From NCBI GenBank assembly GCA_937888365.1, contig CALBFA010000017.1, positions 1-35,584 of the forward strand: a DNA stretch of 35,584 nt, given 5' to 3'. A program made the translations under genes and the position numbers. The stretch is from an uncultured Fidelibacterota bacterium. Lineage in GTDB: Bacteria > Fidelibacterota > UBA8477 > JABMPR01. Below are positions 29,926 to 35,512 of this stretch, piece by piece (the stretch's first letter is position 1; every line of letters starts with the position of its first letter). A model generated the notes under the pieces. It made no database searches and had not been told where the DNA came from. It was given only the letters and a program-made list of their open reading frames with translations.

Positions 29926-30096
29926 GTGGCTAAAATTAATTTCAGTCAAGATATTCAAGAGCAATACAGCGAAGCCCTTATGGATGGAGAAAAAACTAAA
30001 AGCCAGAAAACAGATGCTCGCACTTTAGCCTCCACGACAAAGGCGATTTTAGCTTCGAATTTGAGGTCGGGTTTTAATGACATGACCAAACCGTAA
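29926..30096 (+). CDS. Short reading frame of unknown function at the accessory-DNA junction
   Basis: A 56-residue plus-strand frame starting with GTG 29926. It begins VAKINFSQDIQEQYSEALMD and has a balanced, soluble-protein-like composition with no low complexity. I do not recognise it. It is divergent from rpmH, and its last 48 bp overlap the 3' end of the gene on the other strand at 30049. One reading is the remaining N-terminus of a chromosomal gene cut by insertion of the accessory block; another is a chance frame. No Shine-Dalgarno is visible. Confidence 0.3.
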   Translation: MAKINFSQDIQEQYSEALMDGEKTKSQKTDARTLASTTKAILASNLRSGFNDMTKP

Positions 30097-30351
30097 CGTC
30101 AACTCTTTTAGTTGTTTACCCTTACTTAAAATATATCCATTGTGTTTTAACTCTTGGTCATATTTTTCTAAATACCGCTTAACGGTTCTTTCATTAATAT
30201 CATAAAAGCCCGCTACCATTTGGGTCGTAAATTTGTATTCGCCCTTAAAGAACATGCCAGGTAAACCAATATATTCTTGAACTTTTTCAACAGCAAAACT
30301 ATTATTTAATATGTTTTGTCTAGCAATATTTGAATTTGTCAAATCTCTCAT
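30049..30351 (-). CDS. DNA-binding protein, N-terminal part (probably truncated)
   Basis: A 100-residue protein starting MRDLTNSNIARQNILNN, followed by a helix-turn-helix-like region (FTTQMVAGFYDINERTVKRYLEKY) and HNGYILSKGKQLKELTLRFGHVI. I associate this with a family of DNA-binding proteins found near restriction and phage-type loci in Bacteroidota-like genomes. As I recall, those continue for a further 200 or more residues after this point. Here the frame stops soon after the H-V-I segment, just where it meets the rpmH-side DNA, so it looks cut at the 3' end. It follows an attC-like element and may be the end cassette of the array. No function can be given beyond likely DNA binding. Confidence 0.55.
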   Translation of the reverse strand: MRDLTNSNIARQNILNNSFAVEKVQEYIGLPGMFFKGEYKFTTQMVAGFYDINERTVKRYLEKYDQELKHNGYILSKGKQLKELTLRFGHVIKTRPQIRS

Positions 30352-30404
30352 ATAAAAGCTTTTTTATAAAAGGACATATTTTCTACAATGCTGTTTTCAA
30401 TGAA

Positions 30405-30470
30405 GCCCAACGGTTGGTGTATGTGGAGTGACATCCCGCAGGGTGCTATGCACGATACACATTGTTGTGC
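30405..30470 (-). repeat. attC-like recombination site after the ATPase gene
   Basis: A 66-bp imperfect palindrome 10 bp after the stop of the ATPase gene. Read on the gene's strand it opens with GCACAAC (6 of 7 to the R'' box RYYYAAC) and closes with GTTGGGC (perfect for R' GTTRRRY). Inside are an unpaired spacer and a 9-bp stem (GTGTATGTG with CACgATACAC) with one extrahelical base, then a small CCC/GGG terminal hairpin. This order is the architecture of integron attC sites, which fold as single strands, and the length is in their range (about 57-141 bp). Confidence 0.55.
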
Positions 30471-30480
30471 TTTCGTTTTT

Positions 30481-31929
30481 TTAATTATTAGTTTTCATTT
30501 TAAGTGTAATCTCTCCTATGTTGTAGGCATATATCGAAGCAGGGAGAAAAGTAAATCTCAAGCCTTGTATTTCTTTCATTCCAATTTGGTCAATTGAAGT
30601 AACAACAGCAGATTCAAAGTTATTTGTTTCACAAAATTTAATTAAACTTTTCAATTCTTGAGGCTTATTAAAATATCGGTTACTCCATTTAATTTCCACT
30701 CCCCAAACGGGTTTATAACTTTTATCATCAACTAAAACAAGATCTACTTCACCTTCATTTCTCCCGTCTTTCCATCTAGCATATGTTAAATCTAGTTGCT
30801 CTCGATGCATCCATTGTGAAAGAATTGCTGTTTCCACCATGTTACCCATTTCTTGGTCTGTTTCACTTATCGGGGAAAATAAAGCAGTGCGAAGTGATGG
30901 ATTAGTAAGATATACTTTGAAGCTTGTTATTCTTTTTAATCTTTTTGCATTGACCCCAACCTTATTTAATATCTTAATTAGGAATGCCGATTCTAAGTAT
31001 TCTAGATATTTTTTTAACGTATCCTTTTGAATCCCACTTTCCCTAGACATTGTCTCATATGAAAATTCATTTCCAGTATTATACGCTATGTATGTAAAAA
31101 ATCTGTTTAGCTCTTGTACATCTTTGATTCCGTACAAGCTTGGCAAGTCTCTAAGTAAAACTTTATCTACAATATCATTTTTTACATATCTACCCATATC
31201 ATTTTGTATTTGTTCAGATAACACAACCTCTGGGTATCCTCCAAAATTTAAATAATGGACAAATTCTTTATTTAATACTTTTGAATCATGCGTTAAGCAA
31301 TACTCTATATCCTTGCCTCCATATTGAACAACACCTTTAAAAATTAAATGATCTAATTCTTTCAAATGAATATATTCTTGAAATGTTAATGGAGGTAACA
31401 AGAAATCAGTAAATCTACCGGCTCCACTTTCCGTGCTGTGCCATTTTATCGCTGCAGCTGCCGAGCCAGAAACAATGAATTTAGTTTCAGGATATGAGTC
31501 AACTAATACTTTTAAGTGTCTTTCCCAATCTTTCAAGTATTGTATTTCATCAAAAAAGACATAACAACCATTAAGGTTTTCAAGGTTTAAAGAGTCTTTA
31601 CATAGAGTTAAAACATCCTCCAGACTTAAATTGACATAAATAGGGTTGTCAATCCCGATAAAGAATAGTTTATGAGGATTTGTTCCTTCTTTCAGTAAGT
31701 TTTCAATGCAATGAAATAACATTACTGTTTTTCCAACCCTTCTCGGCCCCATCAGGACTAAAGCTCTTTTAATATTCCTTTCAAGTACAAATGGATAAAA
31801 AAGATTAAAATATAATCGCTTGGACATTGAGCTATATGTGTTTGGTATCTCCTTGGTGATCCACCATGGATTTTCATAGCGAAGACGTTCAATAATTTTT
31901 TCTGTTGGAATAAGGCTTAGTATTGTCAT
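30481..31929 (-). CDS. AAA-family ATPase with DUF4143 C-terminal domain
   Basis: A 482-residue protein. Walker A is GPRRVGKT (61-68), Walker B is YVFFDEIQ (123-130), and the sensor segment is FIVSGSAAAA. A winged-helix region follows (FSYETMSRESGIQKDTLKKYLEYLESA), then a C-terminal domain with a PD-(D/E)XK-like pattern: D396 in GEVDLVLVD and E412-x-K414 in GVEIKW. These AAA_14/DUF4143 proteins are widespread in accessory DNA and linked by position to defence or toxin-antitoxin-like loci, but their biochemical role is not established. It is a single-gene unit bounded on both sides by long palindromes, as in an integron cassette. No Shine-Dalgarno is evident. Confidence 0.82.
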   Translation of the reverse strand: MTILSLIPTEKIIERLRYENPWWITKEIPNTYSSMSKRLYFNLFYPFVLERNIKRALVLMGPRRVGKTVMLFHCIENLLKEGTNPHKLFFIGIDNPIYVNLSLEDVLTLCKDSLNLENLNGCYVFFDEIQYLKDWERHLKVLVDSYPETKFIVSGSAAAAIKWHSTESGAGRFTDFLLPPLTFQEYIHLKELDHLIFKGVVQYGGKDIEYCLTHDSKVLNKEFVHYLNFGGYPEVVLSEQIQNDMGRYVKNDIVDKVLLRDLPSLYGIKDVQELNRFFTYIAYNTGNEFSYETMSRESGIQKDTLKKYLEYLESAFLIKILNKVGVNAKRLKRITSFKVYLTNPSLRTALFSPISETDQEMGNMVETAILSQWMHREQLDLTYARWKDGRNEGEVDLVLVDDKSYKPVWGVEIKWSNRYFNKPQELKSLIKFCETNNFESAVVTSIDQIGMKEIQGLRFTFLPASIYAYNIGEITLKMKTNN

Positions 31930-32063
31930 ATTTTTATCTTAATATAGCAATTATGTGTAAAATAAACAGAATTAAAACGACCTATTATTACAATTAATGC
32001 ATCTTTAAGCCGTTAATTGGAGAACGAAACTGTTAATTCGACAATCGGGTCTCTTAGCATTAA

Positions 32064-32194
32064 ACACAACGTTTGGGTATATGAAAAGTTGGGCATTTCG
32101 GAGCGATTTCCTGTCAAACCGCACAAAGTTAAATGCGAGCTACATACTTTATTTTCAGCACTATCCGCCCAATTTTTTATATACCGTGTTAGCG
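32064..32194 (-). repeat. Long attC-like palindrome upstream of the ATPase gene
   Basis: Two 19-base arms, 32076-32094 and 32167-32185, are complementary at 17 positions, and the two exceptions are G-T wobbles. Outside the arms an AACAC/GTGTT pair and AAC/GTT ends resemble degenerate R boxes (ACACAAC on the left, GTTAGCG on the right, plus strand). The total of 131 bp is within the attC size range, although box agreement is weaker than at 30405-30470. Confidence 0.45.
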
Positions 32195-32266
32195 TTTCGT
32201 TGTTTATTTTTCCAGTCAATTTATCTTTCATTTTTGCTGCATCTTTTCTGTCTGCTGTGCGTTTGG

Positions 32267-32338
32267 GTAGGCAAGCTCTTTGGCTGGTTTTGGTCGTGCG
32301 TTGGCTTTTTCGAGCGACCAGCCAATGTGCTTGACTAC
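32267..32338 (-). repeat. Long imperfect palindrome after the specificity subunit gene
   Basis: Arms of 22 bases, 32267-32288 and 32317-32338, match at 18 positions, including the perfect TTGGCTGGT/ACCAGCCAA stem. It begins 11 bp after the hsdS stop on the minus strand. An AGCCAAC sequence just outside resembles an R'' box, but no R' box (GTTRRRY) is found on the other side. It could be a degraded attC or a factor-independent terminator without a T-tract. Confidence 0.45.
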
Positions 32339-32349
32339 GAAGCGTTGGC

Positions 32350-33747
32350 TTACTTTGTTTCTTTCATTAGTTCGTTCATTTCTTTTTTAATTGCTTTAAT
32401 AAGCCTCTTTTTTTCTTCAATCAAACCAAAAGAATATTTTACTTTATCGCTTATTAATTTTATTGATTCATCATCAAGAATTGGAATACGGATTTTGTAA
32501 ATATTTTGAGGTCGAAGATGTGGGATAGTAGACGCTATTACAGTTCTCTTATTTGCTTGGTATTGTCCAATTTCTTTGATTGATAAAGCCAAAAAGATAT
32601 AATATGGATTTAATTTAGACATTTCTTTCATTCTCAAAATAGCGTGACCTGATGATAAAATGCAATTATCTTCATTTGTAACTAATGCCAAGTTTCCTAT
32701 ACTACCGTCTTTTGTAAAAGCAATATCATAAGGTTTTATTTCTTGTTTTAATTCTGTTTTAAAACTTTTGTCACAATAAAAATCAGGATAACTATCAAGT
32801 TCATAATTGAAAATATCAGAGGTTCTTAAAAAAGGAATACTGTCTTTATTTTTTGACAGATAGTCTAAGTAATTTGCACTTCCTATTTCTTCACCTTTAA
32901 AAATATCTATATGTTTTTTAAGGTCTTCCAGTTTAAATTTTTTACTTATAAAAGTTAAAACCTTTTCACCATAAGGGTCATAAGAAATTGGTGTCCAAGA
33001 CTTATTTTCTATTAATTCTTTAAGCGTTGTTTTAAAAGAAATATCTTTTTTTATAACATCTTTCTTTAAATTTAGCTTTGAATAAAAAAGGGCTTTACAT
33101 TCATTTATAGTTTCCAAAAATTCTTTCTGTAAAGAGGTTGCCTTTGAGTATTTTTCTACAAACTTATTTTGAATGACATTGTCAACATTAGGTATTATAA
33201 ATTTTTTGAGTTTTGTTAAAGAGAGTAAGCCTTGAATGTTGCCACCACCAGAGTAAATACATTGGTATTTAGAAAATTCTGAAAGAAAAAAGCAAGTTAA
33301 AAACTCAGGTTTGATTTTATCATTATTGCAATAAACATATGCTATATTTCTAGGTAAACTGCAACGGGAATTAAAATATTCTGCAAAAATTGCTGTATTC
33401 CCTAACGTACCAACTACCGATAACAATACAGCATCTTTTTTTAATTCTTTATTTATATTTTTCTCGTTGTCTTGCTCTGAAATATAGTTTGAATCAACTG
33501 TATCAACAAAACCTTCTTTAAGGTTATGAATATATAAATATTTAATTTCACCTTTCGGAAGAAGTTCAATGGCAGTATGTATTCCATCGGATAGTATAGG
33601 GAAGTATTCTTTATTACCAAGTTTAACAAACTTGTATTTAGATTTCTTAATTAGATTTTCGCTAAAGTTGAGAAAACTATAGTATTTAGGATTAAAACGA
33701 CCTTCTCTAATGACTTGTGAAATATTTACACTTAACTTATTTACCAT
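32350..33747 (-). CDS. hsdS: Restriction-modification specificity subunit (HsdS)
   Basis: A 465-residue protein with two target-recognition domains in tandem (roughly residues 30-210 and 250-440). Each ends in a helical spacer (ATSLQKEFLETINECKALFYSKL and KVKYSFGLIEEKKRLIKAIKKEMNEL), the organisation of type I HsdS or BcgI-type B subunits. TRD hallmarks include FPILSDGIHTA and FLRTSDI with IAFTKDGSIGNLALV. It determines the DNA sequence methylated or cut by its partner. It overlaps the methylase gene by 11 bp, so the two form one operon. Confidence 0.9.
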   Translation of the reverse strand: MVNKLSVNISQVIREGRFNPKYYSFLNFSENLIKKSKYKFVKLGNKEYFPILSDGIHTAIELLPKGEIKYLYIHNLKEGFVDTVDSNYISEQDNEKNINKELKKDAVLLSVVGTLGNTAIFAEYFNSRCSLPRNIAYVYCNNDKIKPEFLTCFFLSEFSKYQCIYSGGGNIQGLLSLTKLKKFIIPNVDNVIQNKFVEKYSKATSLQKEFLETINECKALFYSKLNLKKDVIKKDISFKTTLKELIENKSWTPISYDPYGEKVLTFISKKFKLEDLKKHIDIFKGEEIGSANYLDYLSKNKDSIPFLRTSDIFNYELDSYPDFYCDKSFKTELKQEIKPYDIAFTKDGSIGNLALVTNEDNCILSSGHAILRMKEMSKLNPYYIFLALSIKEIGQYQANKRTVIASTIPHLRPQNIYKIRIPILDDESIKLISDKVKYSFGLIEEKKRLIKAIKKEMNELMKETK

Positions 33748-35512
33748 TTTTCCAGTCTTTATAAAGTGAAGATATTAAAGCGATGTCGTCTTCTTGTTGT
33801 AAATCCCCTCGTCTATTATGTCCACAAGTTTCAGCAATTGCCATAAAAATTTCATAATCAGTTTCAGGCGTTTCTTCATCTAAGTATTTTTGCAAAACAA
33901 TTATACTCGTCTTAGTGCTTGTATGTGGCATAAATGTTTCAATAGGAACATCAATAACAGCTAATATTTTTGCTTGCTTTATTATGTGATTTCTTATATA
34001 TCCTAATTTGTCATTGCCGAGTATGCCATCAGGTAATACAATACCCAGTCTACCGCCTGGATTAAGCAACTGCAAACATCTTTCAATGAAAAGTATTTGA
34101 GGAGCTTCTTTGTCCTTTATTTTCCCCTTTTCCCACTGATTTTCTTTTTTATTAAACTTCCATTTATAACCAAATTCAAATTGCTTTATTATTTCTTCTC
34201 CAGTCACAGGTAATTTAGCACCAAATGGGGGATTGGTAACAATTACATCAAAAGATTCAAGTTTGATTTCTATTTGTGTTTTTTTGTTCCAATTTTTTGG
34301 AGAATCTAAACTGTTTTCACAAAACACGCCACCTCTTCCATCGCCTAGTAACGCCATATATGCTTTTGCAACTTTGCTTAGAAAGTAATCTTTATCAACA
34401 CCTCTTAGGTTTTTTATTGCTACCTTTTGTTTTTCAATTTCAATTTCATTGTCTGGCCAATTTAGGTTTTTACCTTCTTTCTCTATTTTATCCCAAATAA
34501 ATCTCATTGATTCAATCAAAAATCCACCGCTACCACAAGCAGGGTCAAGTATTTTCTCATCGGTTGAAGGGTTTACAATTTCAACTATCATCTTAACTAC
34601 ATTTCTTGGCGTAAAGAATTGCCCTTGCCCACCTTTTAAGGCGTGGTCAATAAAAACTTCAAAAGCATCTCCGATTGCATCTCGTGATGAATCTGTTAAA
34701 CTAAAGTTTTGTAACTCACCAACAACATAGAATATAGATTTTGAATCTAAATGGATATTATCTGAACTATCAATAACATCACTGTATTTTTTCTTTACTT
34801 CAGTAAATAAATCTTTTATCCTTTTTGCAACGTCTTCTGGTTCTTCATCTATTCCTGCTCTAAATGTCACAATATCTGTTTGACGAGTAAATTTTTCATC
34901 ATAGATTTTGCAAAAAATCATATTAATCAATTCCTGAGCTAAAACTTCATCTCTAGTTGCACCGACATTATTTGCTGCTAAATAATTCCTAATTGTTTTA
35001 AAGTTCGATTTTAAATTTATTGCTGGTTTTAAGTCACTCCTGACAAATTTACCAATATCCTCAAGTCTTTGATTATGCTTTGGAATATTCGGAATTTCTT
35101 GAAATAAAACTTTACCACCTTTTTCAAGTTTTCTAATAAAAAGTTTTTGGTCTCCATTAAACCAAACCCCAAGAGAAGCTTTTGAAAATCTCAAATAATC
35201 TTTAAGTTGTTCAAGTCCGTCTTGTCTCGTTTTCTTTTTGCATTCAATAATTATGGTAATATCATCTTCATTTCTTTTATTGTTAGCAAAAACTGCAATG
35301 TCAATTGGATATTCTTTTTTTGTATCTGAAGGTCTTACTTTAACCCTATACTGCGGTCTAGTTTGCAAAAGTGACTTTGGATATTCATAATCCTCTACTA
35401 AAATTTTAGAGTAAACTTGAACTGCCTCTATTTCTTCAGGTGTCGCTTTTACTTCTTCTCCAGATATATAGTCAAATATGTATCCTTCCTTTGGTTCTTT
35501 TTTATCTTCCAT
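33737..35512 (-). CDS. Nuclease-methyltransferase fusion (HsdR N-terminal-like domain plus N6-adenine methylase)
   Basis: A 591-residue protein with two parts. Residues 45-135 form an HSDR_N-type PD-(D/E)XK domain: D71 in YPIDIAVF and E90-C-K92 in ITIIIECKKK, then LRFSKASLGVWFNGDQK. Residues 190-560 are an HsdM/N6_Mtase: GQFFTPRNVVKMIVE, the AdoMet loop DPACGSGGF (323-331), and the catalytic NPPF (427-430), with helicase motifs absent. With the adjacent two-TRD specificity subunit this resembles type IIB/BcgI-like systems, where one polypeptide both cuts and methylates, more than a classical type I system with a separate HsdR motor. A separate hsdR could still lie beyond the window edge, since only 72 bp upstream are visible. 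Confidence 0.85.
   Translation of the reverse strand: MEDKKEPKEGYIFDYISGEEVKATPEEIEAVQVYSKILVEDYEYPKSLLQTRPQYRVKVRPSDTKKEYPIDIAVFANNKRNEDDITIIIECKKKTRQDGLEQLKDYLRFSKASLGVWFNGDQKLFIRKLEKGGKVLFQEIPNIPKHNQRLEDIGKFVRSDLKPAINLKSNFKTIRNYLAANNVGATRDEVLAQELINMIFCKIYDEKFTRQTDIVTFRAGIDEEPEDVAKRIKDLFTEVKKKYSDVIDSSDNIHLDSKSIFYVVGELQNFSLTDSSRDAIGDAFEVFIDHALKGGQGQFFTPRNVVKMIVEIVNPSTDEKILDPACGSGGFLIESMRFIWDKIEKEGKNLNWPDNEIEIEKQKVAIKNLRGVDKDYFLSKVAKAYMALLGDGRGGVFCENSLDSPKNWNKKTQIEIKLESFDVIVTNPPFGAKLPVTGEEIIKQFEFGYKWKFNKKENQWEKGKIKDKEAPQILFIERCLQLLNPGGRLGIVLPDGILGNDKLGYIRNHIIKQAKILAVIDVPIETFMPHTSTKTSIIVLQKYLDEETPETDYEIFMAIAETCGHNRRGDLQQEDDIALISSLYKDWKNGK

Follow-up and report, generated by a model that had tools for sequence, protein, structure and literature searches.

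The window, by which we mean the whole stretch of 35,584 nt that was analysed, is an entire contig (C17) of a source genome of 2.53 Mb in 110 contigs. At its right end, an ATPase gene with AAA_14 and DUF4143 domains lies between two hairpins and is preceded by two restriction-modification-like genes. The features of this region are as follows.

30049-30351, reverse strand: remnant of the gene of the next cassette (PADLOC PDC-M59A, PDLC04717; residues 1-94 of 338 only)
30396-30411, reverse strand: start of the next cassette in the gene sense, downstream of E1; GTTGGGCTTCATTGAA, that is GTT-N7-ATT, the family form
30405-30470, forward strand: E1, attC-like hairpin closing the AAA_14/DUF4143 cassette (family model R2, 43.3 bits)
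30412-32070, reverse strand: inferred mobile unit (cassette), consisting of GTT-N7 (from 32070 down), the AAA_14 gene, R'' GAAAGCACAAC and the body of E1
30481-31929, reverse strand: cassette gene, AAA_14 + DUF4143 ATPase of 482 aa (PF13173, 3.6e-29; PF13635, 1.1e-27)
32064-32194, forward strand: E2, second family member, with a long loop (R2, 52.4 bits, rough E 3e-10)
32255-32348, forward strand: E3, probable degenerate member directly behind hsdS (inverted repeat I2 and inspection)
32350-33747, reverse strand: HsdS-like specificity subunit (matches PADLOC Specificity_I and mad5); probably an upstream cargo gene of this array
33737-35512, reverse strand: type I-like N6-adenine methyltransferase (HsdM-like), probable cargo (PF02384, 2.7e-43; PADLOC MTase_I/II)

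The ATPase also matched the PADLOC candidate defence family PDC-S01 (7.6e-57), and the contig ends 72 bp upstream of the HsdM-like gene. On the other side, the truncated PDC-M59A-like cassette gene adjoins rpmH/rnpA. No GTTGGGCTTC partner that could close the cassette of this remnant was found to its left, and the distal end of the array beside rpmH/rnpA therefore looks truncated.

The element E1 reads GCACAAC...GTTGGGC on the gene strand (30470-30405) and begins 10 bp past the stop codon of the ATPase gene (TAA at 30481-30483). In the forward orientation, the AAC of R'' is at 30409-30411 and the GTT of R' at 30464-30466. The R boxes are paired at 6 of 7 positions, the inner stem has one bulged base, the unpaired spacer is asymmetric, and a terminal CCCGCAGGG hairpin closes the structure. 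In its letters, its anatomy and its distance from the stop codon, the 66-bp element was as the original prediction had described it. The CCCGCAGGG tip is common to two Flavobacteriaceae copies (L069 and L078), and the single bulge is also present in a minority of family copies. The folding ('bottom') strand of E1 is the forward strand, antisense to the AAA_14 gene.

Folding of this strand had been proposed as a check, and the hairpin was seen, with an unremarkable energy (z about -1). A generic R-box/stem scan gave E1 a score of 19.5, against a null maximum of 19.0 in shuffled sequence. Neither measure separates E1 from chance, so both were dropped as evidence and the case for E1 had to rest on its relatives. 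The window had no Rfam match at gathering score, and BLASTN of E1 against its own genome returned E1 itself as the sole match.

The original prediction overlooked a stronger member of the family, E2, as well as the probable E3. E2 lies on the upstream side of the AAA_14 gene and scores above E1; its GTT (the complement of 32068-32070) opens the AAA_14 cassette in the gene sense. An exact match to its left arm, ACAACGNTTGGNTATATGAAAAGT, occurred in just two of the 84,980 species genomes searched (~0.03 expected), namely the Flavobacteriaceae Polaribacter glomeratus and Aequorivita antarctica. Within the phylum of the window, the exact arm occurred only in the window and all else was at control level. 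E3 has 22-nt arms that are 86% complementary and keeps ACCCAAACG, with GCA replacing GTT at the crossover position. It was not detected by R2, and from its sequence it is probably a degenerate element of the same family.

The arm of E2 led to A. antarctica and from there to relatives in Flavobacteriaceae. The A. antarctica contig is an array, in which six hairpins alternate with single genes on one strand. With a first model, made from the arms, 47 of 201 Flavobacteriaceae genomes were seen to contain relatives. The arms-only model R1 (57 positions) missed E1 and the long-loop copies, and its place was taken by R2, a covariance model made from 31 of these Bacteroidota elements, with the window sequence excluded from training. 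E1 and E2 are members of the R2 family by score, E1 with E-values of 1e-7 across 769 kb and 7.6e-10 across 5.9 kb (filters off), although all covariance-model E-values given here are rough, the calibration being short. Stem covariation was strong in R2: 95% of the cells were paired, and double changes numbered 97, compared with 30 after shuffling and no more than 35 in slid controls. Of the 31 training elements, 29 have a conserved G.T wobble at one stem pair and 21 at a second. When both strands were folded (with RNA energy parameters, or DNA where available), 105 of 120 elements gave the better structure on the strand antisense to the gene (p 8e-18), because the conserved G.T wobbles become A.C mismatches on the other strand.

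With strict filters, R2 elements were present in 52 of 396 Bacteroidota genomes; in the window's phylum, related elements were found in 41 of the 245 genomes examined. The relatives of the window elements in their own phylum were found by the covariance model alone, without help from BLASTN or the exact arm pattern. The window genome itself holds related elements at three other places, involving two further contigs.

All elements of one array share their direction in the Flavobacteriaceae loci, where up to 21 elements occur in 19.5 kb; one short R2 match (L130) is palindromic and hence was scored on both strands. Read as in the model, the element runs AAC...GTT and the segment between elements runs GTT-N7 ... 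N7'-AAC. The N7 and N7' of one cassette were complementary at a mean of 5.27 of 7 positions (n=86; 35 perfect, 21 more at 6/7), against 2.64/7 for the 7-mers that flank a single element and 2.56/7 for random 7-mers. This is the result expected of cassettes with a GTT crossover, since the two arms can pair only in the closed hairpin of their own cassette. In 67 of 74 cassettes the longest ORF was in the gene sense, its start codon a median of 27 nt past the cassette start and its stop a median of 15 nt ahead of the element. Homologous cassettes shared across genera start within ~3 nt of the GTT (600-nt flanks in the query) and end inside the next hairpin. For example, a cassette with a heavy-metal-domain gene occurs in P. 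glomeratus and two other genomes (G280 and G398) at 82-85% identity. The cargo of the arrays is accessory, including beta-lactamase-fold proteins, alpha/beta hydrolases, TPR proteins, Fic, cation efflux and DUF6090 proteins, and others.

Some arrays had features of their own. A 4.7-kb contig (L088, G430:C26) holds nine elements, several of them near-identical 117-nt hairpins with differing N7 arms, in a dense array of small cassettes. The 6.8-kb array contig of A. antarctica (L043, NODE_25) has transposase sequences at either end and a very high stated coverage (368), and may be an amplified array or a multicopy plasmid. Group II introns (RF02001, RF00029) were found next to several elements, on the R' side (L112 8101-14308, L115 968-1155, L094 16340-16512), and several directly follow the GT of this side (GTGTGTGCCCAGCATGGGCATCT). 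Class C group II introns associate with attC sites, and by analogy the introns observed here may target these hairpins.

A tyrosine recombinase is encoded at the 5' end of the arrays in the gene sense. Around 33 recombinase loci read with R2, 23 elements were downstream and none upstream, and in all 18 loci with an element the nearest one had the expected direction. These recombinases aligned with the IntI profile (TIGR02249) only at 1-180 and 239-315, below the cut-off, and the insertion characteristic of IntI was absent; we refer to them as patchless. In the tree, they fell outside the IntI clade, which had a support of 100/100. Homologues of one array recombinase were present in 135 of 201 Flavobacteriaceae, a count that reaches down to E 1e-35, so that some of these homologues need not be array integrases. 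Many array recombinases (L007, L133:8436-9572, L123) have an extra N-terminal domain of ~80-100 aa, with no Pfam name, before the SAM-like domain.

An attI-like GTT was found 33-107 nt past the recombinase stop codon, in the order palindrome, ~6 nt, GTT-N7, and the arrays begin ~35-110 bp behind the recombinase. The palindrome arm had a median of 11 nt, against 5 in shuffled sequence, and 14 of 18 loci had an N7 that paired at 6 or more of 7 positions with the end of the first cassette (shuffled mean 1.5). An IS91-linked integrase was rejected as the identity of the recombinase, as the gap to the first element is just 0.4-1.2 kb and holds the attI-like site and a cassette. In G373 and elsewhere, no patchless recombinase was found in the stretch read around the arrays; the recombinase near the G373 array is of a different, phage/ICE-like type and was left out of the counts.

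In the window's own phylum, 11 of 81 element hits were within 10 kb of a patchless recombinase, where 0.12 were expected. Judging from the coordinates, the group A recombinase genes are co-oriented with the array, and the group B genes point away from it, as in canonical integrons. Recombinases of group B divergent from the elements were seen at L177, L178, L179, L180, L181 and L190. As the two integrase groups are arranged in opposite ways, there may be more than one lineage. Many recombinase genes lie a few hundred bp from a contig end on the downstream or attI side, and 11 of the 38 listed from the window's phylum begin no more than 700 bp into their contig; the arrays may break assemblies or vary within populations.

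The genome of the window has its own group A patchless recombinase, outside the window.

C25:27009-27974: group A patchless recombinase with SAM-like N-terminal and Phage_integrase domains

This recombinase groups with the array-type recombinases of its own phylum, on a branch separate from the chromosomal XerC/XerD. Its nearest structures were XerC-like 4a8e (5e-42) and XerA 5hxy (8e-37), and the IntI4 structure 2a3v matched it in two stretches only. The contig C25 ends 102 nt past the coding sequence with AATAAACGTAATACGTTTAGCGATACGTT, a palindrome and GTT; its terminal letters (...CGTTTAGCGATACGTT) stop exactly at the attI-like GTT, where the relatives have their first cassette. No other occurrence of this attI-like string was found in the assembly, and a join of C25 to the window contig was thus not found. 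From the hairpin arrays and the recombinase with its attI-like end in the same genome, it follows that the AAA_14/DUF4143 gene is a cassette gene. The original reading of the locus as an integron cassette therefore stood in so far as it concerned a cassette recombination site, which is supported by the arrays, the pairing of cassette ends, the common orientation, the cassettes shared across genera, the attI-like site and the integrase in the genome.

The state of the copy in the window is a separate matter. The end 7-mers of its AAA_14 cassette pair at 5 of 7 positions, and for a single cassette the chance of 5/7 or more is ~0.10. As the neighbouring gene is truncated, E3 lacks GTT, the pairing is 5/7 and there is no integrase within the window, the array piece beside rpmH/rnpA may be an old or immobile remnant. 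One could go further and suppose that the system is real in Bacteroidota, that the window copies are inert fragments acquired by lateral transfer of an array piece, and that the C25 recombinase serves other arrays. The loss of the GTT of E3, the truncated neighbour, the imperfect cassette ends and the restriction of the exact E2 arm to the window within its phylum, with the rest at control level, all fit this explanation. However, related elements occur in 41 of the 245 genomes and elsewhere in the same genome, and the C25 recombinase clusters with the array-type recombinases of the phylum. We regard such an origin as possible, but somewhat doubtful.

The original prediction had assigned E1 to attC and named a covariance model and a search for IntI in related genomes as checks. 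A canonical-attC model (R3) was made from ten attC sites adjoining IntI in the same phylum. It detected a held-out class 1 attC site (33.4 bits, E 7e-6) as well as further canonical sites and the IntI arrays of the phylum. On E1, the same model gave 8.2 bits (E 0.44) even with filters off, and canonical attC was not found there. The best match of R3 on five of the new arrays was 18 bits, and R2 in turn detected none of the canonical attC sites. In the canonical sites, two extrahelical bases stand where they would be expected, and the R2 elements have no conserved counterpart to those columns of R3. No canonical IntI was found at E<=1e-60 in any of 400 Flavobacteriaceae, while 42 of the 245 genomes from the window's phylum had IntI over the cut-off, as a positive control. 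The window's genome is among these 42, with a complete and divergent gene.

G000:C21 (L020) 193-1176: canonical IntI of 327 aa

This IntI scored over the curated cut-off (355.9 bits), and the contig C21 begins with CTAAC, i.e. it ends at GTTAG on the attI side. The window genome thus seems to carry both kinds of integron. IntI was found in related genomes, where its absence would have counted against the original reading, but it is probably not the enzyme that acts on elements of the E1 type.

It could be argued that E1 is a canonical attC site moved by this IntI: its ends resemble RYYYAAC/GTTRRRY, and the genome has both the enzyme and a contig that ends at GTTAG too. But R3 finds class 1 attC and the IntI arrays of the phylum and scores E1 at only 8.2 bits, R2 finds none of those sites, the two extrahelical columns have no conserved counterpart, and the family of E1 is present in Flavobacteriaceae in which IntI is absent. 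We consider this explanation improbable, and the part of the original assignment that placed E1 in the canonical IntI/attC class was not supported, the array recombinase being without the IntI insertion as well. Still less probable is a role of the hairpins as transcription terminators or RNA elements, or an origin as dispersed palindromic repeats, with no recombination and with genes lying between them by chance. The hairpins do lie close behind stop codons, and some end near T-runs, but terminators leave unexplained the complementary 7-mers at the ends of gene segments, the cross-genus cassettes with matching borders and the start of the arrays at a recombinase and a palindromic site. E1 has no Rfam match, and in the family the better-folding strand is antisense to the genes.

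Taken together, E1, along with E2, is very probably a cassette recombination site of an integron-like gene-capture system distinct from IntI/attC. The evidence is all computational and consists of the family, its arrays, the pairing of cassette ends, the orientation, the agreement of shared cassettes at their borders, the place of the attI-like site and the association with a recombinase. The best reading of these data is an integron class, unrecognised until now, in Bacteroidota and in the phylum of the window. We think it likely, with rather less assurance, that this is a separate and widespread class, with a patchless Xer-like integrase, a palindromic double-stranded attI, attC analogues in which the strand is chosen by G.T wobbles, and cassette capture in Bacteroidota as well as at least one other phylum, and that it is invisible to finders based on IntI and attC.

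The strand choice, the cleavage point, the chemistry and the part played by this enzyme are what we infer. In the proposed mechanism, the strand antisense to the gene would be extruded as a hairpin, and the G.T wobbles would favour folding of that strand; their asymmetry would replace the extrahelical bases in the choice of strand. A tyrosine recombinase without the IntI insertion would bind the hairpin, cut at GTT and recombine it with the double-stranded attI-like site adjoining its own gene. Cassettes would then enter in a single direction as GTT-N7-gene-N7'-AAC-hairpin, where N7 would be a cassette-specific arm of 7 nt, paired only in the circular cassette or the whole hairpin. The candidate integrase for the window genome is the C25 recombinase.

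The proposed system resembles the canonical integron in many respects. Both have an integrase gene beside the insertion site and arrays of one direction, made of mostly single-gene, promoter-poor cassettes that end in imperfect hairpins. The GTT crossover triplet, the bottom-strand asymmetry, the pairing of R'' with the R' of its own cassette and the association with group II introns are also alike. In contrast, the new integrase lacks the IntI insertion and is outside the IntI clade, and the new hairpins have conserved G.T wobbles in place of conserved extrahelical bases. Each R arm of the new family measures 10 nt and includes a free 7-mer, whereas the canonical ones are RYYYAAC/GTTRRRY, and the attI-like site, in the main layout, is a palindrome 3' of a co-oriented integrase gene. 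Canonical attC recombination uses the folded bottom strand, which is chosen via the extrahelical bases, the central spacer and the terminal structure (review, PMC8946536).

The array pieces of the window, with no integrase nearby, are similar to the CALIN of IntegronFinder, which are attC clusters lacking an integrase, but the window sites escape the canonical attC model. In its structure matches and its SAM-like and Phage_integrase domains, the C25 recombinase is like the simple tyrosine recombinases of the Xer/XerA type; unlike these, recombinases of its type are linked to cassette arrays and an attI-like site, and it is not a chromosomal XerC/XerD. In the classification of tyrosine recombinases by Smyshlyaev et al. 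(PMC8138268), the IntI insertion was called essential for integron function, and no cassette arrays were credited to the patchless members of the integron-like subgroup of simple tyrosine recombinases.

For Bacteroidetes, a single complete integron, that of Salinibacter ruber, was reported with IntegronFinder 2.0 (PMC9024848), and the new arrays have therefore evidently been unrecognised. Sites resembling attC were reported in a Polaribacter phage (PMC9892861). A literature search that excluded preprints and subscription papers returned no published description of such arrays, and an earlier account is possible. Bacteroidota, a major group of the sea and the gut, are regarded as almost devoid of integrons.

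The comparison would also put a mechanistic rule to the test: canonical IntI needs the insertion and the extrahelical bases together, and here both are absent together, with wobble pairs conserved instead. If this reading is true, much of the accessory gene stock of Bacteroidota, including hydrolases, beta-lactamase-fold, TPR and Fic proteins and toxin or defence candidates, would reside in arrays that shuffle their genes and go unseen by annotation tools.
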